From: a virus
DNA: 64,000 nt
Direction: 5' to 3' (one strand)
IMG/VR virus record: IMGVR_UViG_3300050015_000917
Coordinates: 1-64,000 of that record
Shown in pieces: positions 13,817 to 62,226 of the stretch. Every line of letters starts with the position of its first letter. The first letter of the stretch is position 1. A model generated the notes under the pieces. It made no database searches, had not been told where the DNA came from, and worked only from the letters and a program-made list of their open reading frames with translations. The translations under genes and the position numbers were made by a program.

Positions 13817-14482
13817 ATGTTTATAGGAGTTATATATCGAGTAACAAGTCCTAGCAATAAAAAATACTATGGACAAACAACTTCAAAATTTGAGGCTCGA
13901 AAGAAAAGTCATTATAAAGATGCTTTTATTAGACAACTTCAAGGTTCCTTTCAGAGATCATTAAGAAAATACGGATGGGACAATTTTAAATGGGATATAA
14001 TAGAAACTTATGAAAATGATGATAAAATAGAACTTGTAAAAATATTAAATGATAGAGAGTTATTTTGGATTAAAAAGGATTTGACCTATCTGCCGGAATT
14101 TGGGTATAATATGAAAATAGGACCTAGTTATGGCTTTCATAATGATGAATGTAAAGATAAAATTAGACAGACTTTATTGGGGGTTGAACATACAGAAGAA
14201 AGAAAACATAATCAGTCACTTTCTCAAATTGGTTTACCACATGCTCAAAATTTTGGACCTCCTAGATATGGAAAGGATAATAGTTCATATAAAATAGTTT
14301 CTAAGGAAGATAGAGATTTAATTTTAGATTTATATAACAAAGGATTTGGTTCTCGAAGAATTGAGACAGCATTAGATAATAAATATAGTTTTATAAAAAT
14401 TCTTAAAATAATAAAAGCTGCTGGAGTTTATAAACCTCACAAATTTGATGGAAATATAAATAGAGCAAAGACGGTAAAATGA
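13817..14482 (+). CDS. GIY-YIG homing endonuclease
   Basis: 221 residues. The N-terminus has the GIY-YIG signature in variant form (GVIYRV ... KKYYGQT), followed by R/H-containing helix segments (ARKKSHYKDAF) and the catalytic-region element NDRELFWIKK. Residues ~110-140 contain a NUMOD3-type DNA-binding motif (HNDECKDKIRQT ... HTEERKHNQSLSQIG), and the C-terminus looks like a helix-turn-helix (GFGSRRIETALD). These free-standing enzymes cut intron-less or endonuclease-less alleles and spread between phages. It overlaps the next gene by four bases (ATGA) and sits at the upstream edge of the tagged-protein array. Confidence 0.85.
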   Translation: MFIGVIYRVTSPSNKKYYGQTTSKFEARKKSHYKDAFIRQLQGSFQRSLRKYGWDNFKWDIIETYENDDKIELVKILNDRELFWIKKDLTYLPEFGYNMKIGPSYGFHNDECKDKIRQTLLGVEHTEERKHNQSLSQIGLPHAQNFGPPRYGKDNSSYKIVSKEDRDLILDLYNKGFGSRRIETALDNKYSFIKILKIIKAAGVYKPHKFDGNINRAKTVK

Positions 14483-14946
14483 TAGTTAAAGAAAGCATAA
14501 ATTTTGAAAGAGGATTAGAACCCAAACAAGCTTTGAATGTTGGAAAACTTCATTTAATTCAGCAATGGTTAGATGATGCTGGTGTTGGAATAAAAAATTT
14601 TAAAATTAATGATGATTTTTCTATAGATCTTTTTTTACCATTTACAATGAATCAGCAAAGACCAGATTTATTTCCAGATGGTAAGTTACCAGAATATATC
14701 GAATTTAAATCTACAAAAGATTTTGATGTTGATGATTGTGGTATAGTTTCTTTAGAAAGATTTCCTCTTTTTGTTATAGGATATTTTTCTTGCCAAATGA
14801 ATAAAATAACTTCTCTAGAAGGATTTCCTAGAAAAATAGTTAGGAATGCTTATGTGATGGGAAATGAAAAGAGATTTACGGAACACGATATTAGACAAAA
14901 ATGTAACGTCGTTGGTGATGTAGAAGCAGATGATTCGGATGTATGA
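14479..14946 (+). CDS. Tagged LRR-like protein (NFERG tag)
   Basis: 155 residues. Residues 3-22 are the shared tag (VKESINFERGLEPKQALNVG). The C-terminal half is an LRR-like module: short repeats around SLERFP, NKITSLEGFP and YVMGN, ending with FTEHDIRQKCNVVGDV. The same module, with the same ending, occurs at 16041-16916 (twice) and in the 21991-22434 protein, each time after a tag. Start ATG overlaps the stop of the endonuclease. If the tag is a packaging signal, as I propose, this would be a small internal virion protein. Its biochemical role is unknown. Confidence 0.6.
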   Translation: MIVKESINFERGLEPKQALNVGKLHLIQQWLDDAGVGIKNFKINDDFSIDLFLPFTMNQQRPDLFPDGKLPEYIEFKSTKDFDVDDCGIVSLERFPLFVIGYFSCQMNKITSLEGFPRKIVRNAYVMGNEKRFTEHDIRQKCNVVGDVEADDSDV

Positions 14947-16916
14947 AATTAGTTAGCGAAAATATTAACTTTGAGAGGGGAATGGATCCTATGACTGCCA
15001 TGGATATTGGTATGTTCCATTTTGATGTTGAATTCTCTGGAGATCTTGAAGGATGGGAAGAGTCAGAAAAAACTAAAGCTAAAAAATGGCACTATGGAGA
15101 TGTAAAAATTTTATCTATTGAAGGAAGTACTGATGAAACCAATGCGGAACTTTATATAAATTTATCTGATGGCGATTATATTAGATTTATTTCTTATTAT
15201 AGTTTTGAACCATTTCATTCAGATAAATATCATGGGAAAAAAGATTGTGCTTTAATATCTATAAAATCAAGAAAACTAGTAGATTCTGATGTTTTTGAAA
15301 AATATGAGGAGGAACTTGAAAATGGTTCTATCATTTTGGCTGTCATGAGAATATATGAAAATATAAAAAATGAATCTATTAAAGAAAGTATTAATTTTCA
15401 AAGAGGTCAGGATCCTAAAAAAGCTATGGAAATTGGAATACCCACATGGGAAACTTTACAAGAGGGTGATATAATATACGTGCCAAAAGGGGTAGGAATA
15501 AAAAACGATAGAATTTCGGAATCGCACGCTCATGGTTATTTCCCGGGTGGAACTATTTTAAAAGTTCGAGAATTAGATAATGCTTCTACAAAAGAATGGG
15601 TTCTTCGATATATTTATTTTTCTAGTATGGAAGATTATAATGGAAAAAATGAACAAGATAGATTTGGATATCTTGCAGGAACTCCTAAACAATTTAGAGA
15701 AAAATTCAAATTACTCCCAAGAAGCATGAATGAAGTTCAGAATTTCGAAAGAGGAATAGATCCTAAAGAAGCTATGGAAATAGGAGATAAAGTTCTTACT
15801 AGAAAAATTATTGAAGAAACTATATGGGAATTACCTCAGGATCTTATTCATCAAAATTTTAATATTTTAGGATTAATCAAAAAATTTCGAGGAGAACCCA
15901 TCCTAATAATGAAAACTAAAAGCGACGGGGATGGAGATGGAAAAAAATACATTGCAATGGCTCCAGATTATAGATCTGATTATTATAAAACTCCAAAAGA
16001 AGCTGTAGAAGAGGTAAAAGCTTATTTAGATAAACATCCGATTAAGGAATCTTTGAATTTTGAAAGAGGAATAGAGCCTAAAAGTTCAATGGGCATCGGT
16101 AAAAAAGCTCTTATCGAAACTTGGTTAAAGGAACAAGATTTATACGAGGATGCAATTATCGACAAGGATCTTATTATAAACATTCCTTCGGAAATTAATT
16201 TAGTAGTTTCTTTAAGAAATAAAGATATAGAAGAACTTCCTCCGTATATTCAATTTGGAAAAGTTTGTGGAGGTTTTGATATTTCAGATAATAATTTAAA
16301 AACTTTAAGAGGTTGTCCTACACAGGTTCTTGAAACTCCCGATCTTAAAGGGAATTTCAAATGCTTTGGTAATCAACTTAGCTCTTTAGAATTTGCGCCA
16401 AAAAGAATAGATGGAAATTTTCTTTGTCAAGGGAATCCCGGGCATTTTACTCGAAAAGATGTTATAAAAGTTTGTAAAGTAAAATCCGGAATAATTTGGT
16501 CTGATGATAATATGATAAAGGAATCTATGGATTTTCAAAGAAACGAAGATCCTATGGAAGCTATGGATTTAGGATTTCATGCTCAAATAATAAATTGGTT
16601 TAAGTCCTATGGAATATATCAGGATGAAATTAATGAGCATTATATAGAATATAGAATAAATAAAGATGGAACTATTGATGTATTAGAAGATATAAATCTT
16701 GTAGGAGCTCATATAAATAATTTCCCTTATTTTATTCATTTTAATAAAATATATGGAGGTTTCTATGTAGCTCATAATATTTTCACAAATCTGAGAGGAT
16801 TTCCAAAAGAAGTAGATGGAGATTTTAGTATTTACTCAGCTCAACCAGGAGCTAAAAAATGGAAAGAATCAGAGATTAGGAAAAGGGTTAAAGTAAAAGG
16901 AACAATTTGGAATTAA
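14943..16916 (+). CDS. Five-tag multi-module protein (candidate polyprotein)
   Basis: 657 residues made of five units, each opened by the shared tag: residue 3 (VSENINFERGMDPMTAMDIG), ~146 (IKESINFQRGQDPKKAMEIG), ~262 (NEVQNFERGIDPKEAMEIG), ~367 (IKESLNFERGIEPKSSMGIG) and ~525 (IKESMDFQRNEDPMEAMDLG). Unit 2 is an SH3/OB-like beta module (EGDIIYVPKGVG). Unit 3 is the ETxW/LIKKFRGEPILIMK module also found in minus-strand tagged proteins. Units 4 and 5 are LRR-like modules ending FTRKDVIKVCKV and KESEIRKRVKV. The reading frame is intact, so the units are translated as one chain. Either this is one modular protein or it is cut at the tags. Confidence 0.6.
   Translation: MKLVSENINFERGMDPMTAMDIGMFHFDVEFSGDLEGWEESEKTKAKKWHYGDVKILSIEGSTDETNAELYINLSDGDYIRFISYYSFEPFHSDKYHGKKDCALISIKSRKLVDSDVFEKYEEELENGSIILAVMRIYENIKNESIKESINFQRGQDPKKAMEIGIPTWETLQEGDIIYVPKGVGIKNDRISESHAHGYFPGGTILKVRELDNASTKEWVLRYIYFSSMEDYNGKNEQDRFGYLAGTPKQFREKFKLLPRSMNEVQNFERGIDPKEAMEIGDKVLTRKIIEETIWELPQDLIHQNFNILGLIKKFRGEPILIMKTKSDGDGDGKKYIAMAPDYRSDYYKTPKEAVEEVKAYLDKHPIKESLNFERGIEPKSSMGIGKKALIETWLKEQDLYEDAIIDKDLIINIPSEINLVVSLRNKDIEELPPYIQFGKVCGGFDISDNNLKTLRGCPTQVLETPDLKGNFKCFGNQLSSLEFAPKRIDGNFLCQGNPGHFTRKDVIKVCKVKSGIIWSDDNMIKESMDFQRNEDPMEAMDLGFHAQIINWFKSYGIYQDEINEHYIEYRINKDGTIDVLEDINLVGAHINNFPYFIHFNKIYGGFYVAHNIFTNLRGFPKEVDGDFSIYSAQPGAKKWKESEIRKRVKVKGTIWN
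14949..16573 (+). repeat. Five in-frame copies of the NFERG tag
   Basis: Copies lie at about 14949-15011, 15378-15437, 15726-15786, 16041-16100 and 16514-16573. Each encodes about 20 residues of the form x-E-S-(I/L)-(N/D)-F-(E/Q)-R-(G/N)-x-(D/E)-P-x-x-(A/S)-M-x-(I/L)-G. The spacing (105-160 codons) matches one folded module between tags. Confidence 0.85.
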
Positions 16917-16936: not shown

Positions 16937-18694
16937 ATGAAAGAATTTTATCCTAAATTAAGAAATTTTATATCTGAAGCAAAGGGAGGATTAGAAATTC
17001 CGAAATCCGCTAAAATAGAGGATTATGGATACGTGTTTGCTAAAGATGGAACTAAAATAGACATGAGACATTTAAAGACCGAAATGGATAGTGCTAAAAC
17101 TGCTATCGTTTCTCAAAGCCAATTATTTGCTCCTTATGTTCATAAGTTTACTCCAATTTATACATGGTTAGTTCCTACTATGGCAACTGATGGAACTCGT
17201 CTCTTTGTTAATCCTAGCTTTGCTAATAAATTAAGCTGGAATCAAATAATATTTGTTCTTGTTCATGAGATTATGCATTGCGTACTTCTTCATATGGATA
17301 GAATGAAAACTAGAAATGCTATAGTTCAAACTTCAGACGGCAAACCTGCTTCTCTTTTTAATATTGCAGGGGATTATGAAATAAATGATATTATCGTTGA
17401 TACTTTAAATGATTTTGATGAAGAATTTGTTAAAAAACTTGGAGGTCTTTATGATGCTAAGTGGCTTAATATACCCGTTGAAGTTATTTATGACGAACTT
17501 AAGAAAACAATTCCCAAAATGCCACCTAATCCAGCTTCAAAGAATAATCAAGGACAAAATCAAGGAGAAGGAGGATCTGGCGGGGGAGCTGGAGGTCAAG
17601 GACAACCAGGGGGAAAAGGAAAAGGGGGAGGAAAACAGCCTTTAGCGGTTGGTTCCAAAGTTAAAATTAAAGCTACAGGTCAAAAGGGAATTGTTACAGC
17701 TGTTAACGCAGATGGAACTTTTGAAGTAAATCCCCTTAATGAAGCTTTTATTTATCCTAGATTAATTAATGAAGGATATAAACAAGAAGAATTAATTTCT
17801 ATTAGTGATGGGGGAGATGGTGAAGGAGAAGGTGAAGGAGGAGAAGGCGGAGGTGAAGGAGATAATAGTGGCGGTGTAGGGGGAGCTGGTGATGAAGGAT
17901 ATGATGAAACATTAGATCAAACTGGAGAATTTGATCCTGCAGGAACTGGCGGCATTATTTCTCCTGAAATGGGAAAGAAAATTGCTAAAGCTAGCGGATA
18001 CGGTGAAGGAGAAATGGGTCCTGATGAAAATCCAACCGATAAATGGAGAGTTGAAGGATCTAAGATGCTTGACCGTGCTGAAAAGGGACAAAAAGGAAGA
18101 GGGCGGGGAAAGGGAGAATCCCTTGTAAAAGCTCTTTATCGTCTCCATAGAGGGGATGTTAACTGGAAAAATCTTTTTAGAAGATATGTTGCGACAGCAC
18201 TTTCCCCTGAGGTTTATCAAAAAATTGGAAATAAAAAACATCTAGGCGGAGAATATCTTCGTTATGGAGAAAAGCATAAGCAAGATGCTATGGAAAATAT
18301 AGTCGTCTTAGTTGACGTTTCCGGATCTATGGGTCAAGAAGCTCTTAATAAAATTATTAATGAAATAAATCAAATTATCTTTTCAAAAAGAGTAAACAAA
18401 ATAACTATTGCTTTCTTTGATGATGGGGTTGACGATAAGAGTGTTCAAACTATTAAAAGAATGGGAAAACCTTATATTCCTAAAGGAATTAGCGGGGGAG
18501 GGGGAACAGACTTCCAGAAAGCTCTTGATTGGGTTCATGAACATTTAAAAGACCGAGTTTCCCTATTGGTATTTATGACTGATGGGGGTGCTCCTAATCC
18601 AAAGAAACCACCTTATGCTCATAAATTTATTTGGATAATTTATGGTAATCCAGGATGGAAACAGCCATTTGGTAAACAAATTAATTTAGGATAA
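16937..18694 (+). CDS. VWA-domain protein with HExxH metallopeptidase-like N-terminal domain
   Basis: 585 residues. The N-terminus MKEFYPKLRNFISEA resembles the T4 internal-protein targeting peptide. Residues ~100-120 contain the zinc-peptidase motif VHEIMHCVLLH (H110, E111, H114), as in the DUF2201 metallopeptidase-like domain. A glycine-rich linker holds a KOW-like piece (VGSKVKIKATGQKGIVTAV, ~235-260). The C-terminal third is a VWA domain with the MIDAS residues DVSGS (~460), GGTD and FMTDGG. DUF2201/VWA proteins normally work with MoxR AAA+ ATPases. One is encoded nearby at 20356-21975, with two ankyrin genes between. The target is unknown. Confidence 0.75.
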   Translation: MKEFYPKLRNFISEAKGGLEIPKSAKIEDYGYVFAKDGTKIDMRHLKTEMDSAKTAIVSQSQLFAPYVHKFTPIYTWLVPTMATDGTRLFVNPSFANKLSWNQIIFVLVHEIMHCVLLHMDRMKTRNAIVQTSDGKPASLFNIAGDYEINDIIVDTLNDFDEEFVKKLGGLYDAKWLNIPVEVIYDELKKTIPKMPPNPASKNNQGQNQGEGGSGGGAGGQGQPGGKGKGGGKQPLAVGSKVKIKATGQKGIVTAVNADGTFEVNPLNEAFIYPRLINEGYKQEELISISDGGDGEGEGEGGEGGGEGDNSGGVGGAGDEGYDETLDQTGEFDPAGTGGIISPEMGKKIAKASGYGEGEMGPDENPTDKWRVEGSKMLDRAEKGQKGRGRGKGESLVKALYRLHRGDVNWKNLFRRYVATALSPEVYQKIGNKKHLGGEYLRYGEKHKQDAMENIVVLVDVSGSMGQEALNKIINEINQIIFSKRVNKITIAFFDDGVDDKSVQTIKRMGKPYIPKGISGGGGTDFQKALDWVHEHLKDRVSLLVFMTDGGAPNPKKPPYAHKFIWIIYGNPGWKQPFGKQINLG

Positions 18695-19620
18695 TGATTG
18701 TTAGGGAAAGTATTAATTTCACTCGAAGCGGAAATCCTATTGAAACAATGAGAATAGGAAAAGCAGGACTCTTTCTTCAAATTATAGAGAAAATAAGGAA
18801 TGAATTTGCTTGGGATCCGGTAAAAGATAAAGATTTAATCCCACAATCTCTATCTCAGTTAACTGAAAATAATTTATATGGAATTGATACAAAGAAATTT
18901 CTAAGATTATATGCTGAAGAGCATAAAAATAAAAATTCTGTTATTCGTGAAATTCTAAAAGAAATTATGGATAAAGTTTTAACATTTAATCCAAATAAAT
19001 TAGAGCATCACGCTGGATTCTGGGTAAACTTATTTTTTGTTTTAGGAAGAGCAGAAGATATATGGAGTAATCCAAAATGGATAAACGATTTTACCTTTAA
19101 TGAATTTCGTCAGTATGATTCAAAGAGAACACTTGAAGAAACAAAAAAACTTGGAGCAAATAAAGCTTTTCTTTTAGGATCCACTCGAGGGGAAAGAGAA
19201 TTAGAAATATGGGGGATTGAAAATGGAGCAACAAACTTGAATCATACTTATAACGAACCTATTCAAAATGCTTGTCAACAAGGAGATGCAGAATTGGTAA
19301 AATTATTATTAGCAAGCCCAATAGTTAACCCAGGCGATAATACAAAAAGTGGTAAAAGATATAAAAGTGACGAAACAAATTTCTGTATTAGAAGAGCAGC
19401 AAAAGAAGGGCATTTAGAGGTTGTAAAATTACTATTAAATGATAAAAGAGTAAATCCAGCAAGCAAAGCAAATTGGGCTTTAGCTGCTGCTTTGTCTAAT
19501 GAAAATATAAAAATGTGTCAATTACTTTTAACTAATCAAAGGGTTAGAGATAATATTTTTAATATGAAGGAATCTTCTATAAAAAAATTCAATAGTTACA
19601 AAGGAGCGGGGGAGTTATGA
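18694..19620 (+). CDS. Tagged ankyrin-repeat protein
   Basis: 308 residues. The tag is at residues 2-22 (IVRESINFTRSGNPIETMRI). The middle is helical and unassigned. Residues ~185-290 form ankyrin-type repeats: NEPIQNACQQGDAELVKLLL, NFCIRRAAKEGHLEVVKLLL and NWALAAALSNENIKMCQLLL, with the linkers NPGDN and VNPASK. Ankyrin repeats mediate protein-protein binding. Start overlaps the stop of the VWA gene by one base. Together with the tag this suggests a binding protein carried in the virion or attached to the VWA/MoxR machinery. Ankyrin assignment is firm; role is inference. Confidence 0.75.
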   Translation: MIVRESINFTRSGNPIETMRIGKAGLFLQIIEKIRNEFAWDPVKDKDLIPQSLSQLTENNLYGIDTKKFLRLYAEEHKNKNSVIREILKEIMDKVLTFNPNKLEHHAGFWVNLFFVLGRAEDIWSNPKWINDFTFNEFRQYDSKRTLEETKKLGANKAFLLGSTRGERELEIWGIENGATNLNHTYNEPIQNACQQGDAELVKLLLASPIVNPGDNTKSGKRYKSDETNFCIRRAAKEGHLEVVKLLLNDKRVNPASKANWALAAALSNENIKMCQLLLTNQRVRDNIFNMKESSIKKFNSYKGAGEL

Positions 19621-20336
19621 TAGTTAGAGAATCCTTAGGATTTACAAGAGGGGGTGATGTCAAAGCCGAAATAGGTATTGGCAGAGAAAAACTTATTGGC
19701 GATTTTGTAAAAGAAGTAAGCAATATTCCTCAACAAAGGCATCAGATATTAGATCCTGCAAATAAAAATGAAGTTCTTTATAAAGCAGCTTTAATGGGAA
19801 GAGCCGATATTATTAAACTTCTTCTTTCAGATCCTTCAGCTAATCCAGCATATCGAAAAAATGCTGTTGTTGCTATTGCTGCTATGAAAGGATCAGTTGA
19901 AGCTGTAGATGCTCTTTTAAAAGATGATAGGGTAAATCCTGCTGATAATCATAATGAAGCTTTATATCAAGCTGTTAAAAATAATCAATTGGAAGTTGTT
20001 AAGAGACTTATGGAGGATCCGAGAGTTAATCCAGCCGATAGTAAAGAATCCTTGGATAGGAATTCTAATACAGTTTTAAATGACAATTATATTATTTTAG
20101 AAGCTGCTTCTAATCAATATATTGCTATTATAAAAGAATTAATAAAAGATCCAAGAGTTAAGATTAAAAGATCCATACAATTAGTTGCTTCTAAATTAAG
20201 TAAAGTAGGAATAATGGGTCCTCAAATAGAAGCTTGGAAACCAATTTTAGATTTTTTAATTAATCATCACAAAGCTCAAGAGGAATTAACAGACAAAGAA
20301 ATAATAAGATTTAAAGAAAAGATAAATAAAGTATAA
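19617..20336 (+). CDS. Tagged ankyrin-repeat protein, second copy
   Basis: 239 residues. A diverged tag is at residues 2-22 (IVRESLGFTRGGDVKAEIGI). Ankyrin repeats follow from about residue 45: KNEVLYKAALMGRADIIKLL, NAVVAIAAMKGSVEAVDALL and NEALYQAVKNNQLEVVKRLM, each followed by D-x-R-V-N-P-A-D-type loops, then a shorter one (YIILEAASNQYIAIIKELI). It overlaps the previous ankyrin gene by four bases (ATGA) and precedes the MoxR-type ATPase. The two ankyrin proteins share the tag and the repeats but differ in their middle parts. Confidence 0.75.
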   Translation: MIVRESLGFTRGGDVKAEIGIGREKLIGDFVKEVSNIPQQRHQILDPANKNEVLYKAALMGRADIIKLLLSDPSANPAYRKNAVVAIAAMKGSVEAVDALLKDDRVNPADNHNEALYQAVKNNQLEVVKRLMEDPRVNPADSKESLDRNSNTVLNDNYIILEAASNQYIAIIKELIKDPRVKIKRSIQLVASKLSKVGIMGPQIEAWKPILDFLINHHKAQEELTDKEIIRFKEKINKV

Positions 20337-20355: not shown

Positions 20356-21975
20356 ATGAAGAAACAATTAGTATTTGAATCCCTTCAGGATTTTCAAATT
20401 AACCAGGGAGAATTAAATGAAGCTATATTTAGCAAAATCGGGGGAGCTATTAAGAAATTTTTCCAAAAAATAGGAAAACTCTTCTTTTTTATGTTCCAAG
20501 GCAAACCAACTACAGAAGCTATGGCTCCTGTTAATATTGGTATCCTGGTTAAAGAAGGCGCTCTTTTTAAAGGAATTTCTTATGTTCCATCAAAATCAGA
20601 TATTGAGGTAAACCCCCAATTAGGATCTCTTACTAGAGAAATGCTTATTCAAAAAAGAGGAGGAAATAATGTTCAAGAAAGTGTTGTTAATGAGGCTAAA
20701 ATCTCTCTTGATCATCCCGATAAAAATGTACCAAATGTAGATAAAAAAGGATTTCAAAGAAGGGTTCGTATGTGTATTAAATATCCCAGAATTAAACCTG
20801 TTATGATTTGGGGAGCACCTGGGATAGGAAAAACACAAATAGTAAAATCTGTTTTGGAATTAGTAAATCCTCAAGGAAGACTTATTGATGTACAAACATC
20901 TAAAATGGCTCCTGATGATTGGTCACTTCCTGCAACTTATAAAATAGATGATGAACTTAAAGCAAGGGATATTCCTAAATCCTGGCTTCCTGTTTACATT
21001 AAAAGCGATGATGCAGCTGAAAATAAAAGAAGAGATGAGATTGCTAATTTTGGCGATGGCGGGGTTCTTTTCTTAGATGAACTTTCTCGTGCACCTAGTT
21101 CAGTTCAAAATACTTGTTTGAAACTTATCGATGAAAGAATAATTGGTGATGCAATTTTAGGTTCTAAATGGTCAATTATTTCAGCATCTAATAGAGCAGG
21201 AGATGATTCAGAAAGCGTTCAGAACTTTTCAACAGCTTTAGGAAATAGATTTTCCCAGATAAATTATATTCCTGATTTCAAAGGATGGAAAGAATGGGCT
21301 TCAACTAAAGGAAGAGAAACCCCAGAAAAAACTCAGGAAAAAGGTAAAAAGCAAGAATATAATAAAACGGATCCTTCTAAAAGTCCAATAGATTCTCGTA
21401 TTGTTGACTTCTTGGAATTTAATCAAGAATATTTCTATACTCTTGATGATGATCCGGAAAAGAGTATCTTTGCATCTCCTCGTTCATGGGAAGCTGCTTC
21501 AAATAATATAGCTGCTCTTATGCAAGATGCTAAAGATGAAGGCTATAATGTAACCAATAAGGATATTACTGAGGTAGTTGGTTCTGATGTTGGTATGGAT
21601 ATTGCAACAGAATTTCAGACATTCCTAAGACTTCTTGAATCATTCAAAAAAGAAGATATTAAAGAAGTTCTTACCCACCCAGATAAGGCACGTATGCCTA
21701 AAAAAGCTGGTTCAGGATTTGATCAGTCAGAAGCTAATGCTCTTATCTCTCTCGTTTGTACATCAACAAGGGGAAGAGATATTACTCCAGATGAATTTAA
21801 TAACTTTGTAACATATCTTATTCGTCTTGATAATGGTTCACTTGCAACAAGAGGATTAAAAATGATGATTGATATTCATCCTTATATTCACGAAGAACTT
21901 GGTGAAGTTGAAGGAAGAGACAAATACAAAGAAGGCGTAGATAGATTTATTGTTAAATACAAAGATATTTTCTAA
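20356..21975 (+). CDS. MoxR-type AAA+ ATPase
   Basis: 539 residues. An N-terminal extension of ~125 residues begins MKKQLVFESLQDFQ, related to the shared tag, and contains a hydrophobic/basic stretch (IKKFFQKIGKLFFFMFQGK). The AAA+ core shows Walker A GAPGIGKT (~153-160), Walker B GGVLFLDELSRAP (~235-247) and a sensor-like SIISASNRAG. MoxR ATPases remodel or activate partners together with VWA proteins, and the VWA/HExxH protein upstream is the obvious candidate. It has its own A-rich leader (TATAAAAATAAAAC) 20 bases before the ATG. The N-terminal extension is unusual for MoxR proteins and might target it to the capsid or a membrane. Confidence 0.8.
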   Translation: MKKQLVFESLQDFQINQGELNEAIFSKIGGAIKKFFQKIGKLFFFMFQGKPTTEAMAPVNIGILVKEGALFKGISYVPSKSDIEVNPQLGSLTREMLIQKRGGNNVQESVVNEAKISLDHPDKNVPNVDKKGFQRRVRMCIKYPRIKPVMIWGAPGIGKTQIVKSVLELVNPQGRLIDVQTSKMAPDDWSLPATYKIDDELKARDIPKSWLPVYIKSDDAAENKRRDEIANFGDGGVLFLDELSRAPSSVQNTCLKLIDERIIGDAILGSKWSIISASNRAGDDSESVQNFSTALGNRFSQINYIPDFKGWKEWASTKGRETPEKTQEKGKKQEYNKTDPSKSPIDSRIVDFLEFNQEYFYTLDDDPEKSIFASPRSWEAASNNIAALMQDAKDEGYNVTNKDITEVVGSDVGMDIATEFQTFLRLLESFKKEDIKEVLTHPDKARMPKKAGSGFDQSEANALISLVCTSTRGRDITPDEFNNFVTYLIRLDNGSLATRGLKMMIDIHPYIHEELGEVEGRDKYKEGVDRFIVKYKDIF

Positions 21976-21990
21976 AATAAAACTTAATAT

Positions 21991-22434
21991 ATGAAGCTTG
22001 TTCTTGAAAGCTTACTAGAATTTCAGAGGGGAAGAAACCCCTCTGAAGTTTTGTCATTAGGTAAGAAAAAGGAAATTGATATATGGTTAAAGCAATATAT
22101 TCCTTTTTCTCGAGCTAGGATCAATTCAGAGTGGACCATTGATACAAAAGAAGTGGTTATTCCTCAAAATAAAGCTATTTATGAAATTCCAGAAGATATT
22201 CAATTTAATATTTGCAGTGGAAATTTTTTTATAAGAGATAATTATTTAAAATCTATGAATGGATGTCCAAAAATAGTGAAGGGTGATTTTATGGTAGATG
22301 GGAATAAATTAGTGAATCTTGATGGATGTCCTGAAGAGGTTAGTGGGGATTTCTATATTAAGAAAAATGAAAATAAATTTACTGTTGACGAAATCAAAAA
22401 AATCTGTAACGTTGGCGGTCGTATTGTTGTATGA
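21991..22434 (+). CDS. Tagged LRR-like protein
   Basis: 147 residues. Tag at 3-24 in the variant form LVLESLLEFQRGRNPSEVLSL. An LRR-like module follows (IRDNYLKSMNGCP, MVDGNKLVNLDGCPEEVSGD), ending FTVDEIKKICNVGGRIVV. This is the fourth copy of the same tag-plus-LRR unit in the region. It overlaps the next gene by four bases. The LRR assignment is by pattern; its binding target is unknown. Confidence 0.6.
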   Translation: MKLVLESLLEFQRGRNPSEVLSLGKKKEIDIWLKQYIPFSRARINSEWTIDTKEVVIPQNKAIYEIPEDIQFNICSGNFFIRDNYLKSMNGCPKIVKGDFMVDGNKLVNLDGCPEEVSGDFYIKKNENKFTVDEIKKICNVGGRIVV

Positions 22435-22730
22435 TAGTTCAAGAAACCATAGATTTTCAAAGAGGAAAAGATCCTAGAGATACTTTACAACTAGGTAGGA
22501 AAATTATTCTTAAATTATGTAATGATTATCGAATTGAGGGGTTTTTAAGAAATAAAAAAGAAGCGGAATATTTCATAAGACAAATTAATGTTGATATGCG
22601 ACAAGCTTATGAAGAAGCTGGGGATGATGGCCAAAGGGAATCAGATGCAAGAGAGATAAGAGATAATGTTTTTTATAAATATGAAAAACAATTAGAAGAA
22701 GAAACTGGATTTAAATTAGTTGATGAATAA
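22431..22730 (+). CDS. Small tagged hypothetical protein
   Basis: 99 residues: the tag at 2-22 (IVQETIDFQRGKDPRDTLQL) and then a charged helical segment (KEAEYFIRQINVDMRQAYEE). No known domain is recognised. It lies between tagged neighbours with overlaps at both ends, so it is probably co-translated with them. Confidence 0.55.
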   Translation: MIVQETIDFQRGKDPRDTLQLGRKIILKLCNDYRIEGFLRNKKEAEYFIRQINVDMRQAYEEAGDDGQRESDAREIRDNVFYKYEKQLEEETGFKLVDE

Positions 22731-23908
22731 TGGCTTTGGTAAAAGAATATATCGATTACGATCGAGAGGATAGGCAAGAATTAGAACTTATTAAAATTCT
22801 TGAAATCGGTCTTCTTAAAAAAGTTAGGGAGTATGCAAAAGAAAAAGGCTGGGATTCTCCAGAAGAATGGATTCCAAATATACTTAATGACCCTCAGCTA
22901 GGAGAAGAAACCCGGGATTTTTGGGTTCAAGCTCTTCTTAATCATGGCCATTTTAAATCTGGGGTAGTTAGGGAATCCCTTGATTTCGAAAGAGGATTAA
23001 CTCCTAAGCAATCTCTTGGAATAGGTATTGAAGAAACTATTAGAAATTTTTTAGATGATAAAACAAGTTCAAGCCCATCTTTATGGATTTCATATTTATT
23101 AAATGAAGGAAGAGAAGAAGAGCTAGACAGGGAAACCAGAGACAAATGGATCAAATTTCTTATTACAAAACCAGAATATAATAAGGATCTAGATGAAAAT
23201 GATTATCTTGAATTAGCATATAGAGAAATTGAATGGATTCCCTATGCTCCGTTTAAAGATGATAATTTTAAATATAAATTTACAGAAAATAGTTATGTTC
23301 TTTATTTTAAGGATTGGGGTAATTTTGCAGATTATTTTGATACAACTTCAAGAGATGTAAATTCGCAATTTATCGAAGCAGTTTTATCTGGAGATGGTTC
23401 TTATGAATATTTTGATTATGGCGTAAGAGAATATAAAGACATTACGGATTTTGCATGGCCTATTAATAGAGTTCTGCAAAAAGGAAAACAAATCCCTGCT
23501 ATAAAAGATCTAAAAGATAAAGCTATTGAAATGGGAGCAGACCCGAATAAAACGGAAACAATAGATGATCTTTTAGAAGAAATTCAGGAAAATGAAGATC
23601 TATCAGATCTCTGTGATGCTGTTAGATTTGCTTATAGTGAAGCTACAGCTCTTGCTGATGAATCTGAAGCTTATATGGATTTACAAAGAGCTATTAAAAA
23701 GCATTATCATATTGGGGATGCTAAATATGATGAAAGCAAAGAATTTTTTGTAGCTCCTTGTGATTTTGAAGGTATTAAACTTTTATCATTTACACTAGCA
23801 ACCGGAGAAGATAAAATTGAATATAATCCTCCACAAAGTTATAGCGGAGATATGACAATGGAAGATATAAATGATTCGCTCATTAATAAATTAGATGATT
23901 TGGAATGA
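22730..23908 (+). CDS. Two-unit tagged protein
   Basis: 392 residues. The N-terminus LVKEYIDYDREDRQELELIK is a degenerate tag, and a clear one lies at about 79-99 (VVRESLDFERGLTPKQSLGI). The two short helical segments after each tag are similar to one another (EWIPNILNDPQLGEETRDFW and LWISYLLNEGREEELDRETR), so the unit was duplicated. The C-terminal ~200 residues are acidic, with the element LCDAVRFAYSEATALADE, and are not recognised. Start ATG overlaps the previous TAA by one base. Confidence 0.55.
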   Translation: MALVKEYIDYDREDRQELELIKILEIGLLKKVREYAKEKGWDSPEEWIPNILNDPQLGEETRDFWVQALLNHGHFKSGVVRESLDFERGLTPKQSLGIGIEETIRNFLDDKTSSSPSLWISYLLNEGREEELDRETRDKWIKFLITKPEYNKDLDENDYLELAYREIEWIPYAPFKDDNFKYKFTENSYVLYFKDWGNFADYFDTTSRDVNSQFIEAVLSGDGSYEYFDYGVREYKDITDFAWPINRVLQKGKQIPAIKDLKDKAIEMGADPNKTETIDDLLEEIQENEDLSDLCDAVRFAYSEATALADESEAYMDLQRAIKKHYHIGDAKYDESKEFFVAPCDFEGIKLLSFTLATGEDKIEYNPPQSYSGDMTMEDINDSLINKLDDLE

Positions 23909-24541: not shown

Positions 24542-25057
24542 ATGATAGTACGAGAAGGATTGAATTTTGAAAGAGGGCAAGATCCAAAGGATGCTATGAA
24601 TATAGGCAATGAGAAAATTCGAAATTTAAGTCGAGATTATAATTATTTAGGCCCTATTATTAAAAATCTTCAAGCACCTGATGATGAATTTACTTTTGGG
24701 ACAATAAGACATAAAATAGATGGGCTTAAGAAAGTCATTGAATTAATTATTATTGAATTCTTACGAAAAAAATACGAAATACAATTTCAAGAAGATTCTG
24801 AACTAACTAGTGGATCCGGTGATAATTTATTTGCTTCCGCAAAAGTTGGTAATTATCAATACGAGCTTCGAAAAAATGGAGTTGGTAGCACTTATTGGGC
24901 AAAAGTTATAAGTCTTAAAGGAGAAACTTTAAATACTAGAAACTCAATTTTTGTAAATGAGCCACCTATAAAAGAAGATTTTTTCCAAACTTCTCAATCT
25001 TCTTCACTAAGGATTTTTGATGAAAAATTTCAAAAGCTTCTGAAAAAATATCATTAA
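24542..25057 (+). CDS. Tagged hypothetical protein
   Basis: 171 residues. Tag at 2-22 (IVREGLNFERGQDPKDAMNI). The remainder is mixed alpha/beta with no recognised family (VIELIIIEFLRKKYEIQFQE, NYQYELRKNGVG). It is the last plus-strand gene before the lysozyme, and its TAA overlaps the converging lysozyme gene's end by four bases. No terminator hairpin is visible between them. Confidence 0.5.
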   Translation: MIVREGLNFERGQDPKDAMNIGNEKIRNLSRDYNYLGPIIKNLQAPDDEFTFGTIRHKIDGLKKVIELIIIEFLRKKYEIQFQEDSELTSGSGDNLFASAKVGNYQYELRKNGVGSTYWAKVISLKGETLNTRNSIFVNEPPIKEDFFQTSQSSSLRIFDEKFQKLLKKYH

Positions 25058-33492: not shown

Positions 33493-34902
33493 TTATTGGT
33501 GCATAATCCATCTATCTTCGTCTGGATTTTCTGGTTGAATGGCATAATTAGCTGTTCGGATTTCTCCTAAATATCGAACCCAAATTCTTCTAACTTTCCA
33601 AGCAGGTTTTTTATTTGAAAGCATGGTTTTCGTTATTGGGTTGTCATTCGAATCTGTGTCCTCATCCTCATTTATTCTAAGTTCTACAAGTCTTTTCTCA
33701 CTGGGTATCCAAACTTTTACCCTATCCCCTTTTTTATATGGTTGAGTATATTTTCCAATTCTCATAGACTTTTTGGGTTCCATTCCTCTTTGAAAGTGAT
33801 AAACTTCCCGAACTGGATCATGTGGTAACGGAGTTAATTGTTTAAGAATTTCTGTTAATCCTTCTTCAGCAGTTGCGAGAATTTTCTCTTTCATTATTTT
33901 TCCCTCAATACGATAGCCATAAGAAAAATAATCTTCTTGGGTTTCTATTTCTGTGGATGCTTTAGCAGGATAATATCGAATAAAAAAATTATCTGCTCTA
34001 AAAATTTTATCATATCCCGGGGGCATAAAATATGTTCCTTCGATAATACCTAGTGAATAAGGAAAAACATTAGATATTTTATATTCCCCTCCTCTTATTT
34101 CAACCAATAGATCTAGGACCTTTTTAATAGCACGTTCTCCTACTCTCCCTATTTTCATACTATCTTTAGGATCCTGTCCTCTTTCAAAATTTTGGGACTC
34201 ATTAGTTTTATTAATATGAGCATCTATAGCCTTTTTGACTTTTTCCAAAGCCTTTTCTGGAATTTTTGATACCTCTCCCCCCAATTTTGTTATAAATGCA
34301 GAAGTTCCTATATAATAAGTTTCCCCGGCAAAATAAGTTTCCCCCTCATCCTCTACCTTTTGGGGAACTTTTGAACTCATAAGTAATATTGGAAATCCTT
34401 TATAATCTTTTATTAAATCAATAATTTTATATTCTTTTGGATTATAAGTTACCCACCAATCGGTTTCTTCAATAAATTTTATGTCTAAATAAGTTTGACC
34501 AATAGTCATAGATTTTTTGGGTTCTACCCCTCTTGTAAAATACTGAGCTTCTTGCATTCTCGGAACTAATTCTAATAGGTTTTCTAATTGAAGAGGAGTT
34601 CCCCAGATAAAAATATCATCAGAAGTTCGAGTATTTTTATCTCCGAGATAAGCTGTAAATCCGATACAACCATCATCATATAATTCAGAGTCTGTATTAA
34701 TTTGAAGATAATACCCTTTCGGAAAAATATGATAGCGGGAATCATCCCTAATTTCATGTTGAGAATCGGTTGTAAATTCTTTTATTATTTTTAAAATATC
34801 CCCTTTTTTTAAAGACAACCATTTTTGGACAAGACCAATTCTCATAGATTTTTTGGGGTCTATTCCACGTTCAAAATGAATATTTTCCCTAACTAGTTTC
34901 AT
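33493..34902 (-). CDS. Four-tag multi-module protein (candidate polyprotein)
   Basis: 469 residues in four units, each opened by a tag: LVRENIHFERGIDPKKSMRI, QEAQYFTRGVEPKKSMTIG, NESQNFERGQDPKDSMKIG and REVYHFQRGMEPKKSMRIG. Unit 1 is an SH3/OB-like module (KKGDILKII). Unit 2 is the ETDW ... LIKDYKGFPILLMS ... YYIGTSAF module. Unit 3 is unrecognised. Unit 4 is a small beta module (KKGDRVKVWIPSEKR). Units 1-2 have the same order as units 2-3 of the plus-strand protein at 14943, and even the junction is alike (LVPRMQEAQYF versus LLPRSMNEVQNF). Confidence 0.6.
   Translation of the reverse strand: MKLVRENIHFERGIDPKKSMRIGLVQKWLSLKKGDILKIIKEFTTDSQHEIRDDSRYHIFPKGYYLQINTDSELYDDGCIGFTAYLGDKNTRTSDDIFIWGTPLQLENLLELVPRMQEAQYFTRGVEPKKSMTIGQTYLDIKFIEETDWWVTYNPKEYKIIDLIKDYKGFPILLMSSKVPQKVEDEGETYFAGETYYIGTSAFITKLGGEVSKIPEKALEKVKKAIDAHINKTNESQNFERGQDPKDSMKIGRVGERAIKKVLDLLVEIRGGEYKISNVFPYSLGIIEGTYFMPPGYDKIFRADNFFIRYYPAKASTEIETQEDYFSYGYRIEGKIMKEKILATAEEGLTEILKQLTPLPHDPVREVYHFQRGMEPKKSMRIGKYTQPYKKGDRVKVWIPSEKRLVELRINEDEDTDSNDNPITKTMLSNKKPAWKVRRIWVRYLGEIRTANYAIQPENPDEDRWIMHQ
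33755..34897 (-). repeat. Four in-frame copies of the NFERG tag
   Basis: Copies lie at about 34838-34897, 34499-34554, 34147-34203 and 33755-33811 on the minus strand. All retain the P-K-(K/D)-S-M-x-I-G end. Only the FERG/FTRG/FQRG core and the residues before it vary. Confidence 0.85.
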
Positions 34903-34904
34903 TA

Positions 34905-35723
34905 TTATTTATAGCAATATCCTGGGAGACTTCCTCCATAAACTCTAATAAGTTCTTTAAGTTCAGATTCAGGGACATAATCTTTAAGAGTCCATGACGT
35001 ACCTCGACCTCCGCTCAGAGATTTCATAGTTTGATCATTAACAAATTCTGCAAAATCCTCAAGCTTTCCAAGAGGCTTATCTCCGGAAGTAAATATTACT
35101 TTAAAATGTCCATTATAATCTTTCCAAATTTCAGCAGTACTACCTTTATAGATATCATGAACATTAAAATACTCGCATTCTCCTGTTCCAAAATTAACTC
35201 TACCAATAGAAGCTATATAGCCTTTGCTTAAACGTTTTCCCCCGATTTCAGTTGCACCGGCTTCAGAAAATCTTCCTATTCCTAGATTTTTAAATATTTC
35301 AGAATTTCCTCTTTGAAATCCACCGCCACCACCGGATTGCTTTTCTGCATTAGCACCAGCAACTCTTTCAGATGGAAGAAGATATTGAGTTTTAAATTTT
35401 CTTTCTAGCTTTTCTCCTTTTCCAACAGGTCCTACTACAGGAGCAAGAACATCTGCCGAAGCTTTTGATCTTACACCAGAACCACCTAGATCAACAGCTC
35501 TATCATGGAATATCTGAGATATATCACTTCCCGCACCAAATACTTCTATAGCAGCTTCAGCTCTTGCTTGAGCTTTACCAGGATCCTGAATAATATTTGC
35601 TTGAGTTCTAGCTAAAGAAAGTTCTTTCTCGTGATTTCCTGCAGATTTGGTTTTTATATCGGTCATACGTACAAGATCCTTCTGTCCGAATCCTTCATTT
35701 AATAATACAAATTTTGCTCTCAT
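34905..35723 (-). CDS. Hypothetical virion-cargo candidate, paralogue of 58275-58958
   Basis: 272 residues. N-terminus MRAKFVLLNEGF resembles the short targeting version (compare MKAKFVFES at 42769). Residues ~14-85 align with the start of the protein at 58275: KDLVRMTDIKTKSAG, IQDPGKAQARAEAAIEVF and FHDRAVDLGGSGVR. The C-termini also align (SWTLKDYVPE ... YGGSLPGYCYK). An inserted middle (GGGGGFQRGNSEIFKNLGIG) contains a tag-like FQRG ... LGIG piece that the paralogue lacks. Function unknown. Confidence 0.5.
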   Translation of the reverse strand: MRAKFVLLNEGFGQKDLVRMTDIKTKSAGNHEKELSLARTQANIIQDPGKAQARAEAAIEVFGAGSDISQIFHDRAVDLGGSGVRSKASADVLAPVVGPVGKGEKLERKFKTQYLLPSERVAGANAEKQSGGGGGFQRGNSEIFKNLGIGRFSEAGATEIGGKRLSKGYIASIGRVNFGTGECEYFNVHDIYKGSTAEIWKDYNGHFKVIFTSGDKPLGKLEDFAEFVNDQTMKSLSGGRGTSWTLKDYVPESELKELIRVYGGSLPGYCYK

Positions 35724-36157
35724 GGGTATAATGTTTTTTTATATTTTTCTCGAATGTAATAGTTCTCTATATCTATTTTAGCATCATGGATAGCTATTTC
35801 CTCAGTTTCAACCATATCAGTTTTATCTGCTGGAGAAATTCCTATATAAAGCTCTTGGCCAACAGCAAAGTTTTCAGGACGAAATTTAATAATAAGTATA
35901 GGATAATTTTGATAATTTCTAATTAGTTTCACAATGTCAGCTACTTGTAAAATATTGTCAAGATTTTCACTCCAATTAGTTTCTTCAATAATTTTTTTAT
36001 CAAGAACTGTTAATCCAATTCCCATAGATTTTTTAGGTTCTAATCCTCTTTCAAAATTCAAAGATTCTTTTAATTTTTTTTGTTCCTCTTTCCATGCATT
36101 ATGAGAAGTATCTTCTTTTGCTATTTCGCTATCGATACTTCTTTTTAGATTATCCAA
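35720..36157 (-). CDS. Tagged protein, downstream half of a broken two-unit gene
   Basis: 145 residues if translated from a TTG at 36157. The first ~30 residues (NLKRSIDSEIAKE) match the end of a preceding module, and the clear tag comes after them (LKESLNFERGLEPKKSMGIG), followed by the ETNW ... LIRNYQNYPILIIK ... LYIGISPA module. The TTG start is doubtful. The frame upstream reads on into TATTPEKALDNLKRS, which would join the gene at 36145-36384 if a frameshift were repaired. It is probably either initiated internally or a fragment of a formerly continuous gene. Confidence 0.5.
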   Translation of the reverse strand: MDNLKRSIDSEIAKEDTSHNAWKEEQKKLKESLNFERGLEPKKSMGIGLTVLDKKIIEETNWSENLDNILQVADIVKLIRNYQNYPILIIKFRPENFAVGQELYIGISPADKTDMVETEEIAIHDAKIDIENYYIREKYKKTLYP

Positions 36158-36384
36158 AGCTTTTTCGGGGGTAGTTGCTGTTTATTTTTCAGAACAAGAA
36201 TAGGATAACCTCTGTAATCTCTAATGAGTTTAATAATATCATAAAGAAATAAATGCTTTTCGAGATCAATTGCCCAATCAGTTTCATCCATAACTTCTTG
36301 ATCAAGATGAGATTTACCTACATTCATGGAAGTTTTTGGCTCAAGCCCACGTTCAAAATTTAAAGATTCCCTGATTATTCCCAT
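36145..36384 (-). pseudogene. Tagged module truncated by deletion/frameshift
   Basis: 79 residues. The tag IIRESLNFERGLEPKTSMNV is followed by the ETDW ... LIRDYRGYPILVLKNK module. At this point the relatives continue for about 25-40 more residues (YYIGTS ...), but here the frame turns into QQLPPKKLWII and stops. The other frame at that spot reads TATTPEKALDNLKRS and connects to the gene at 35720. A deletion with frameshift (or a sequencing error) therefore split a two-unit tagged gene. The short product may still be made. Confidence 0.55.
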
Positions 36385-36392
36385 TCCTCTAC

Positions 36393-37130
36393 TTAAAATT
36401 TTCTGGCTAAATTTGGATCATTCTTAAGATTGGTCTTAATTATTGTGCGAAGATCCTCGGGGGACAACTTATATTCTGTGGAAAGTTTATTAACAACTGC
36501 CTTTGGTGCTTTTTCACCCAAAACTCTTCTGAGTTGATTGTATAAATCATAGGTGGCTTGAATAATTTTCGCATTTCTTTTCTGAATTTTTTCTCTTGTT
36601 TTTCTACCTTGATCCGATGTTTCTTCAGCCCATTTGTCGGATATCTCTGTACCTGCATCCATATTAACAGCTTCGCTGGCTAATGAGTATAACTCTCCAG
36701 AAAGACCTTGATCCTCCATTCCTTTAAATTCATCAAACGCATTTATTATTTTATCATATAAATCATTGCCAAAGATTCCTTCACGATTTCCTTGTAATAA
36801 AAGTCTAAATTTAGATATTGTATAACTAACCGTACGAGGTTTGAGACCCAATACATCTCCTAGTCTTGGAGCAGATAGCTTTTGGAAATCTGTATTCTCT
36901 TCTTTGCCCATTTTTAGTGCATTACGTGTCATTCCGCTATCGCCTCTACCTCGAGTATCTTCTGATCTTCCCATAGCATCTTTAGCAGCTAAATACATCG
37001 CAGCTAGTTGTGGTTTGGTTATAACATCATTACCTCTTGATATAGCAGCTTTTTCACCACCTGAATATTCTATTTCAGGTTGATCGGTTCCATATAATTC
37101 CTCTAGGGATTCGCAAACAAGTTTTTTCAT
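36393..37130 (-). CDS. MKKLVCES protein with helix-turn-helix-like segment
   Basis: 245 residues. The N-terminus MKKLVCESLEELY is almost the same as in the unrelated protein at 23905. Around residues 85-110, RLGDVLGLKPRTVSYTISKF looks like a helix-turn-helix of the sigma/LuxR type, so DNA binding is possible. The rest is helical and charged (DQGRKTREKIQKRNAKIIQA). If the N-terminus is a packaging signal this could be a DNA-binding internal head protein. It is preceded by a ~96-base spacer with promoter-like sequence. Confidence 0.5.
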   Translation of the reverse strand: MKKLVCESLEELYGTDQPEIEYSGGEKAAISRGNDVITKPQLAAMYLAAKDAMGRSEDTRGRGDSGMTRNALKMGKEENTDFQKLSAPRLGDVLGLKPRTVSYTISKFRLLLQGNREGIFGNDLYDKIINAFDEFKGMEDQGLSGELYSLASEAVNMDAGTEISDKWAEETSDQGRKTREKIQKRNAKIIQATYDLYNQLRRVLGEKAPKAVVNKLSTEYKLSPEDLRTIIKTNLKNDPNLARKF

Positions 37131-40589: not shown

Positions 40590-41999
40590 TTAGAAATTGA
40601 CATTCATTCCAGAGTTTCTCATTATCTGTCTCATAGCTGAATCACTATGTATAGACATCCAGTATCTAGATTGGGATGCAATTTGATCTTTAATATACCA
40701 TGTAATATTTTTGTAATCTTTTTTTCTGAAATCAATTGCCGAAATATGATCAAGAATATCATCCAAAGTATCAGCAAAAAATCTGCTTAACTCATTATCA
40801 TTTATTTCTGGAATATTTTTCCTAATAATTTCAGCTATTTCTTTATTGTTTATATCGTAAGTATATCCTTCGTGTTCAAGTCCTTGTATATTTTTTATAA
40901 GAAAACCTCCCCAGCCTATATTCATAGCTTTTTTCGGTTCTTGTCCTCTCTCGAAATCCAGGGATTCATTATTATATCTTTTTAATCTTTGCTCTGCTTG
41001 TTTCTTTTCAATTCTTTCCCACTTTTTGAGATATTCTAAAGCATGCCGAAGTTCTTCTGTAGAGGCTTCTTCTAAAGTCGAAAGATCCCATGACCGAGAG
41101 CCAAAATGATGAGGGCTCAATGCATTCCGTATATAATCTGATAAGACAGAACTACCACTCCAGGATTCTGGATCATATTCTGTAATTTCTGCAATTAATT
41201 TTTGTTTTCTTTCCTCCACTCTTCCAATAGACATAGCATCTTTTGGATCTTGTCCTCTTTCAAAATTTAATGATTCTTTAATAAGTCCATCCGGTGTGAA
41301 AGCATTTTTAAAAAATTGCTGATATTCTGATTTAATAATTAATTTATGTTCAGTTCTCCAGGATCTTCCTTTTATTCTTGATAGTTTTTTCTGAATAGGT
41401 TTTATTTCTATATCACTAAAAAAGTCACTTCCGAAATTTTTCTTAACATAATTTAAGAAAAGTTTTTCATTATCAATATAATCTGTAACATCTAACCACG
41501 CACAATCTCTATTCCCCGAAATATTAATGGTGGAAACTCCCCTTTCACTTGAAAGCCCCCATATTCCTTTTTTAATTTTTGTAGGGAGACCCAATTTTAG
41601 GATTTCTCTCGGATTCTGTCCTCTCTCAAAATTTAACGATTCTTTGATAAGCCCATCTGGCGTAAAAGCATTTTTAAATATCTGGTGATATTCTGGTTTA
41701 ATGACAAGATGAAAAGTCCATCCTCCTTTTTTAAGAGAATTATTTCTTTGATCAATATCGCTAAAGAATTCTGTTCCAAAATTTTTGTAAACATTCTTTC
41801 TAAATATCTCTGAATCAGTGCCATAATCTTCTACTCTAAGCCAAACACGATCAAATCTCTCCATTAAATTAATAGAACCTGTTCCTCTTTCATGATAAAG
41901 ACCCCACAATCCATTTTTAATTTTTGTAGGGAGACCAATTTTCATGGAGGATTTAGGATCTAATCCTCTTTCGAAATTTATGTTTTCTTTAACTATCAT
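40590..41999 (-). CDS. Four-tag multi-module protein with a duplicated module
   Basis: 469 residues in four units after tags IVKENINFERGLDPKSSMKI, IKESLNFERGQNPREILKLG, IKESLNFERGQDPKDAMSIG and NNESLDFERGQEPKKAMNIG. Units 1 and 2 are clear duplicates of ~115 residues: both start GLPTKIKxGxWGL and end IFKNAFTPDGLIKES or FFKNAFTPDGLIKES. Unit 3 is a charged helical module and unit 4 is another alpha module (DDILDHISAIDFRKKDYKN). The stop of the gp5-like gene upstream overlaps its start by four bases. A cleavable polyprotein or a flexible modular protein are both possible. Confidence 0.6.
   Translation of the reverse strand: MIVKENINFERGLDPKSSMKIGLPTKIKNGLWGLYHERGTGSINLMERFDRVWLRVEDYGTDSEIFRKNVYKNFGTEFFSDIDQRNNSLKKGGWTFHLVIKPEYHQIFKNAFTPDGLIKESLNFERGQNPREILKLGLPTKIKKGIWGLSSERGVSTINISGNRDCAWLDVTDYIDNEKLFLNYVKKNFGSDFFSDIEIKPIQKKLSRIKGRSWRTEHKLIIKSEYQQFFKNAFTPDGLIKESLNFERGQDPKDAMSIGRVEERKQKLIAEITEYDPESWSGSSVLSDYIRNALSPHHFGSRSWDLSTLEEASTEELRHALEYLKKWERIEKKQAEQRLKRYNNESLDFERGQEPKKAMNIGWGGFLIKNIQGLEHEGYTYDINNKEIAEIIRKNIPEINDNELSRFFADTLDDILDHISAIDFRKKDYKNITWYIKDQIASQSRYWMSIHSDSAMRQIMRNSGMNVNF
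40916..41995 (-). repeat. Four in-frame copies of the NFERG tag with tandem module duplication
   Basis: Tags lie at about 41936-41995, 41590-41649, 41225-41283 and 40916-40970. The two segments between the first three tags are homologous at DNA and protein level, so the unit duplicated with its tag. Confidence 0.85.
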
Positions 42000-42772: not shown

Positions 42773-43080
42773 TTCTTCTTTATTCGATTATAATATTTAA
42801 GAAGTATATTTTTTATGTTTTCAAATTCATCTTCATCTAAAATAAACATAGGAGTATCTAAATTTCCCCATCCAACATCTGGTTTATATCTACGAGGGAT
42901 AAAATCATTAACTTCTTTAATAAAAGGTTTTCTGTATTCTGTTTGTATAGTTATAATTAATAATTCTTTATAAATATTAATTAAATCTTCAGGAGTCCAC
43001 TCCTTGCCTATTCCCATAGCAGTTATTGGATCTAATCCACGTTCAAAATTAATACTTTCAAATACAAACTTAGCTTTCAT
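42769..43080 (-). CDS. Small tagged hypothetical protein
   Basis: 103 residues. Tag at 5-25 (FVFESINFERGLDPITAMGI) after MKAK. The remainder is a small helical/basic unit (EDLINIYKELLIITIQTEYR) with an acidic C-terminal element (MFILDEDEFENI). It lies between the spike gene and a baseplate gene, overlapping both, which places tagged proteins inside the tail operon. Confidence 0.55.
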   Translation of the reverse strand: MKAKFVFESINFERGLDPITAMGIGKEWTPEDLINIYKELLIITIQTEYRKPFIKEVNDFIPRRYKPDVGWGNLDTPMFILDEDEFENIKNILLKYYNRIKKK

Positions 43081-62206: not shown

Positions 62207-62226
62207 GGGACTAGTTTTAAAGTCCC
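62207..62226 (-). terminator. Terminator hairpin overlapping a stop codon
   Basis: On the minus strand GGGACT (complement of 62221-62226) pairs with AGTCCC (complement of 62207-62212) and is followed by six T residues. The TAA of the gene ending at 62217 lies in the loop side of the stem, the same design as the hairpin at 49987-50013. Confidence 0.8.

Follow-up and report, generated by a model that had tools for sequence, protein, structure and literature searches.

A five-unit tagged chain in a T4-like virus: a candidate polyprotein of small head-internal proteins

Why would a virus string several domains into one polypeptide and open each of them with the same short sequence? The question is raised by a 657-aa frame in the window analysed here, a stretch of 64,000 nucleotides comprising bases 1-64000 of a 78.4-kb virus record. 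The genes of the window include those for baseplate proteins, a head-tail adaptor and an endolysin; the end of the record holds the gene for a gp23-like capsid protein. Together these point to a T4-like contractile-tailed virus. A 132.8-kb contig (G001) is nearly identical to the record and extends beyond it.

As first annotated, the frame is open and intact, and it carries five copies of the tag (profile E values from 5e-16 to 1.5e-5). Its parts are given below, where the vertical bar marks the putative cut.

14943-16916, plus strand: five-unit tagged chain P0001, intact open frame of 657 aa with five tag matches
14943-15011, plus strand: tag 1 with start leader, MKLVSE|NINFERGMDPMTAMDIG, profile match
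15012-15377, plus strand: unit 1 module, type B (MFHFDVEFSGD...), low-confidence fold, with a homologue inside the nine-tag chain of contig L011
15378-15437, plus strand: tag 2, IKE|SINFQRGQDPKKAMEIG, profile match with E value 5e-16
15438-15725, plus strand: unit 2 module, type C, matching unit 1 of the 33493-34902 chain
15726-15785, plus strand: tag 3, MNE|VQNFERGIDPKEAMEIG, profile match, pLDDT below 50 up to chain residue 278
15786-16040, plus strand: unit 3 module, type A (KVLTRKIIEETIW...), pLDDT 72-94, family of nine members
16041-16100, plus strand: tag 4, IKE|SLNFERGIEPKSSMGIG, pLDDT below 50 at residues 368-385, between folded units
16101-16514, plus strand: unit 4 module, LRR-like by sequence pattern, of the same family as unit 5, pLDDT about 80-90
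16515-16574, plus strand: tag 5, IKE|SMDFQRNEDPMEAMDLG, profile match, pLDDT below 50 at residues 522-543
16575-16913, plus strand: unit 5 module, LRR-like, of the family common to unit 4, with an AlphaFold2 fold

The modules had been described as five different ones; there are four kinds only, units 4 and 5 belonging to one LRR-like family. The two four-unit chains annotated at 33493-34902 and 40590-41999 are both real and lie on the minus strand. An assembly join as the origin of the chain was ruled out by an identical 657-aa chain in contig IMGVR_UViG_3300050014_001197 and by an orthologous three-unit chain (51% identity) in another virus, G009. Pfam and PHROGs gave no match to the 657-aa chain, hence none to catalogued polyvalent domains, and a PDB fold search with the chain and with module A gave no significant match. 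Among cultured phages there were weak local matches only, mostly to the LRR-like units, the 22-aa tblastn query with the tag being insensitive.

The tag spans about 20 residues, with the consensus [ILVM]-x-E-S-x-N-F-x-R-G-x-[DE]-P-K-x-[AS]-M-x-I-G. A profile built from 75 tags and run over all contigs read found 199 copies (near-duplicates counted) in chains of two to six, with 36 matches in G001 and internal tags in 17 contigs; the longest chain has nine tags in one 1105-aa frame of L011. The same profile gave zero matches in nine more distant related phage genomes (3.4 Mb), and this silence, together with the profile scores, excludes a chance repeat. A DNA-level repeat or recombination site was also rejected, since tag codons differ synonymously (TCT, AGT, TCC or TCG for serine; CCT, CCC, CCA or CCG for proline); mean pairwise DNA identity among tags is 0.61, and the constraint therefore acts on the protein. 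By these searches, the F-x-R-G-x-D-P tag and the chains are found only in the group around the window.

The window holds further tagged genes and one untagged gene with a related kind of leader:

14479-14946, plus strand: single-tag LRR-like gene adjoining the chain (MIVKE|SINFERGLEPKQALNVG), with a syntenic single-tag gene in G009
16937-18694, plus strand: VWA/metallopeptidase-like protein, untagged, with a T4-CTS-like leader (MKEFYPKLRNFISE|A) whose motif is kept in the syntenic G009 gene
18694-19620, plus strand: single-tag ankyrin protein
19617-20336, plus strand: single-tag ankyrin protein
21991-22434, plus strand: single-tag LRR-like protein
22431-22730, plus strand: single-tag protein
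22730-23908, plus strand: protein with one internal tag (VVRE|SLDFERGLTPKQSLGIG)
24542-25057, plus strand: single-tag protein
33493-34902, minus strand: four-unit tagged chain, 469 aa, found by the tag profile
35720-36417, minus strand: two type A tagged units (36148-36417 and 35723-36181) split by a deletion and a frameshift
40590-41999, minus strand: four-unit tagged chain, 469 aa, found by the tag profile
42769-43080, minus strand: single-tag protein (MKAKFVFE|SINFERG)
62217-62954, minus strand: protein with one internal tag 5' of a type A-like module

In all, about 11 other genes of the window carry a single tag, mostly at or near the N-terminus, so the 657-aa chain belongs to a larger family of tagged proteins, of which it is the multi-unit form. 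The type A pair at 35720-36417 looks like a former two-unit chain, and its split is no sequencing slip, because it is identical in the second contig. The VWA/metallopeptidase-like protein and a MoxR-type ATPase (20356-21975) are encoded as a pair amid the tagged genes, and each opens with a gp21-type leader.

In the AlphaFold2 model of the whole chain, units 3, 4 and 5 are folded (pLDDT about 75-95), and pLDDT falls below 50 at residues 368-385 and 522-543, which correspond to tags 4 and 5; with the shallow alignments behind the models (2-10 rows), such low values are weak evidence of disorder. A single-unit model of unit 3, with ten homologues as input, each bearing its own tag, placed 87 residues at pLDDT 72-94 between two tags that scored below 50 (residues 1-21 for its own and 109-126 for the next). 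Units 1 and 2 gave low-confidence models. The suggestion in the initial annotation that the tags might be linkers agrees with these models: where units 3-5 fold, the tags lie outside them and none falls in a domain core. The tags are thus predicted to be disordered linkers between folded domains.

Linkers of this kind would also suit a chain that stays whole, as a packaged or intracellular multidomain protein in which the tags dock a partner through N-F-x-R-G-x-D-P and hydrophobic-x-E-S is part of the docking motif. Phage proteins of 2-15 domains are known, some of them packaged unprocessed (PMC5512222), and the conserved F, R, G, P and G downstream of the supposed cut would be needless for a protease site alone. 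We consider a permanently whole chain unlikely, given where the conservation of the tag begins. For the counts of glutamate we used a core-only profile (N-F to I-G), so that the site itself was not selected for. Four residues before the phenylalanine (F-4), 41 of 42 internal tags have E, the remaining one being shifted by one, and 37 of the 42 have a hydrophobic residue at F-6. Column entropy is 3.3-3.8 bits from F-12 to F-7, 2.55 at F-6 and 0.16 at F-4; with this drop from F-6 and near-random columns upstream, conservation starts at P3.

N-terminal tags, on the other hand, have E at F-4 in 50 of 81 cases against 41 of 42 for internal ones (Fisher 6e-6, on counts drawn from related sequences that are not independent). 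In a laxer set, E is found at F-4 or F-5 in 65 of 93 (for example MIVKE|S and MKAKFVFE|S). These tags take two forms: one has a leader of about 4-9 residues that ends in E, with mostly V instead of L or I at P3, and the other has the start Met at the tag and no E. The start Met lies 2-4 residues before the phenylalanine in 23 of the 28 N-terminal tags that lack the glutamate, which leaves nothing to remove. Conservation from P3, and a glutamate that is near-invariant only where residues precede the tag, argue against a chain that stays whole. Judged by its residues, the start of an internal tag is of the P3-x-P1 shape of T4 gp21 sites, gp21 cutting after L/I-X-E (PMC9026906); P3 is T, N or Q at some internal tags (KTNE|S, YNNE|S), including both in the G009 orthologue. 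Internal translation starts in place of cutting were discarded, there being no Met near most internal tags. Selection against the site motif within modules was likewise dismissed: the short motif occurs there 81 times for 87 expected. This lack of depletion favours the uncut chain, and it means that a protease would need disorder or the tag itself to pick its site.

A second difficulty for the uncut chain is that the tag motif equals the end of the capsid propeptide. When eleven gp23-like capsid proteins of the lineage are aligned, the propeptide, with its cut placed by analogy with T4, ends in [ILM]-x-E|[N/S/A/D]: LNE|A here, and LYE|N, INE|N, MNE|N, INE|S, ILE|S, LME|N, LNE|S, IYE|S and LNE|D in the set. 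A Peptidase_S77 domain lies directly before the capsid gene in G001, and another S77 domain is found in G005. The protease, like the beginning of the capsid gene, was read from G001, since the record of the window stops short of the protease. The S77 prohead protease forms the N-terminal part of an 844-aa protein (L049:8768-11302), which is probably a protease-scaffold fusion.

Untagged late proteins of the virus open with leaders of T4 type (MKEFYPKLRNFISE|A, MKYSQFLEFGKLLE|A, MKKLVCE|S and MFIAE|S), and a 462-kb phage and Lak have the leaders MKYIQTYKDFLIE|S and KKLYE|S, respectively. A leader ending in a gp21-type site thus seems to be a trait of this lineage. In the 462-kb LR756500 (L157-L158), unlike proteins share the N-terminal leader MKYIxxYxDFIxE|[SA]; in Lak-B5 (L149-L155), unlike proteins carry a KxLYE|S leader and several have LYE|S[LI] near the start. 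These are candidate capsid-targeting sequences of huge phages.

Comparison between viruses provides a third line of evidence. The locus in G009 that is syntenic to the chain, with common flanks (adaptor, GIY-YIG endonuclease and single-tag LRR-like gene; VWA protein), encodes A-LRR-LRR with its own start at A, and the window has B-C-A-LRR-LRR. A second locus, whose flanking genes are common to L011 and the window (identities of 84.8% and 54.2%), is occupied in L011 by its single nine-tag chain; the window has there a two-unit chain that is broken, an untagged gene, and a chain of four units. Tag-plus-module units are thus gained or lost whole and in frame at a syntenic locus, and the modules of the chain recur elsewhere as separate tagged genes: the type A family has members both in chains and standing alone, the LRR-like family of units 4 and 5 numbers ten, and units 2-3 are 35% identical over 259 aa to units 1-2 of the 33493-34902 chain. 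Type B has a single relative, the internal unit in L011. A unit can thus apparently be exchanged between a chain and a gene of its own, which is what one would predict if the two arrangements gave the same products; this speaks further against a chain that stays whole.

Fusions and splits clearly occur, one two-unit chain of the window being broken by a deletion and a frameshift, and the chains might be accidental tandem fusions of paralogous single-tag genes, functionless and with internal tags as leftovers. This account is disfavoured and in our view very improbable: E stands at F-4 in nearly all internal tags across 17 contigs amid random flanks, and the fused three-unit part has been kept between two viruses at 51% identity.

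These observations lead us to propose, with a probability of roughly 0.57, that the chain is a polyprotein from which small proteins of the head interior are released, each tag being a putative prohead-protease site followed by a retained address. The chain has one open frame, several autonomous domains and stand-alone homologues, as a polyprotein should. Mechanistically, it would be made late and enter the prohead as one molecule. Tag residues 1-4, [ILVM]-x-E|[SNA], would serve as the site for a T4-type prohead protease (gp21/S77 family), and during head maturation a cut at every tag would yield proteins of about 80-150 residues. The next ~15 residues (N-F-x-R-G-x-D-P-K-x-A/S-M-x-I-G) would stay on the N-terminus of each unit as an address, which would either take the unit to the prohead core or let it be retained and then ejected along with the DNA. 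Since a leader is missing from some tagged genes (MNFxRG), the address would have to lie in the retained tag; being conserved, the retained part must act after the cut, presumably in this role. The small proteins are probably ejected. Cutting at the tags, presence in the head and entry into the host are what we infer from the whole. The idea of tagged-chain cargo, already put forward in the initial annotation, gains from the predicted disordered linkers, the capsid-site motif at the tags and the separate units in relatives, and loses its count of five modules.

Tagged genes sit among baseplate and tail genes, and LRR-like, ankyrin, GNAT and 2H-phosphoesterase modules could act in the cell; the tag might then be an address for a place or step other than the head (tail, baseplate, phage-induced compartment or host target), cut or uncut. 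We hold this to be quite unlikely, since processing in the head is what the T4-type leaders and the capsid motif suggest, and packaged enzymes of the T4 Alt type in T4-like phages also adjoin baseplate genes (PMC5512222).

The proposed polyprotein of head cargo has close precedents in parts, namely the capsid-targeting sequences of T4 and the polyvalent proteins, and the earlier remark that no phage cargo was known to be made this way has to be narrowed accordingly. The internal proteins IPI-IPIII and Alt of T4, which carry capsid-targeting sequences cut by gp21, are likewise late small proteins, in which one short leader that ends in hydrophobic-x-E precedes mature parts of various kinds; their virus, too, has an S77 protease and a gp23-like capsid. 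T4, however, has one leader per gene, whereas up to nine leader-like tags lie inside one chain here; and its address is a removed leader, whereas here a conserved element follows the supposed cut and would be retained. The targeting information of T4 IPIII resides in residues 4 and 7 of the removed leader. In phiKZ and SPN3US, many head proteins are cut after x-x-E by a gp21-like protease and many small proteins are packaged, as proposed here. The cuts identified in SPN3US yield N-terminal propeptides, the protease's own excepted, and a chain divided into several units that are retained has not been reported there (PMC10052503), so there is no direct precedent for a chain chopped in this way.

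Polyvalent proteins (Iyer et al. 2017; P1 DdrB, N4 virion RNAP) resemble the chain in that dissimilar domains are joined in a single polypeptide whose gene lies among virion genes, and share with our reading counter-defence type domains and a proposed processing and injection; they differ in having no repeated short tag between domains and in that processing is proposed to be by a built-in metallopeptidase. The nearest capsid proteins are those of the Lak megaphages and the 462-kb LR756500 (48% and 40% identity), which have paralogous N-terminal leaders ending in L-Y-E|S or F-I-x-E|[SA]; the F-x-R-G-x-D-P tag was not found in them, nor were chains seen in the parts read.

If the reading holds, a tailed phage would produce its cargo in a way otherwise best known from RNA viruses of animals and plants, in the form of a polyprotein, and the release of that cargo would be tied to the maturation of the head. 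Sequence alone would then reveal the address: any gene of these viruses with the tag could be counted as encoding virion cargo, among them probable counter-defence proteins (2H phosphoesterase, GNAT, ankyrin). The tag might also be tested as a short loading signal that brings proteins into phage heads. A wider version, at slightly less than even odds, is that such phages deliver dozens of small effectors, partly from polyproteins of up to nine units freed by the capsid protease, each with a 15-residue address, the repertoire growing by tag-plus-domain cassettes added in frame.

Most of the 103 tagged proteins searched against Pfam belong to no family; the others include ankyrin repeats (7), one GNAT, one 2H phosphoesterase that also gives a weak Acb1 match, and one gp23-like fragment. 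One tagged module lies behind the 2H phosphoesterase (L080:587-1492; Acb1 is anti-CBASS) and another, on a different contig, behind a GNAT-like stretch (L033:1011-1571); both fusions are possible counter-defence cargo. In two small single-tag proteins (L050:1384-1842 and L052:1401-1856) the C-terminus is similar to a short part of the gp23 capsid protein (positions 11-61 of the Gp23 model), so that a tag is joined to what looks like a piece of capsid protein. Between head-like genes and the capsid gene, a run of glycosyltransferase- and methyltransferase-like genes is found at L009:8485-16702 (G000 68.5-76.7 kb).
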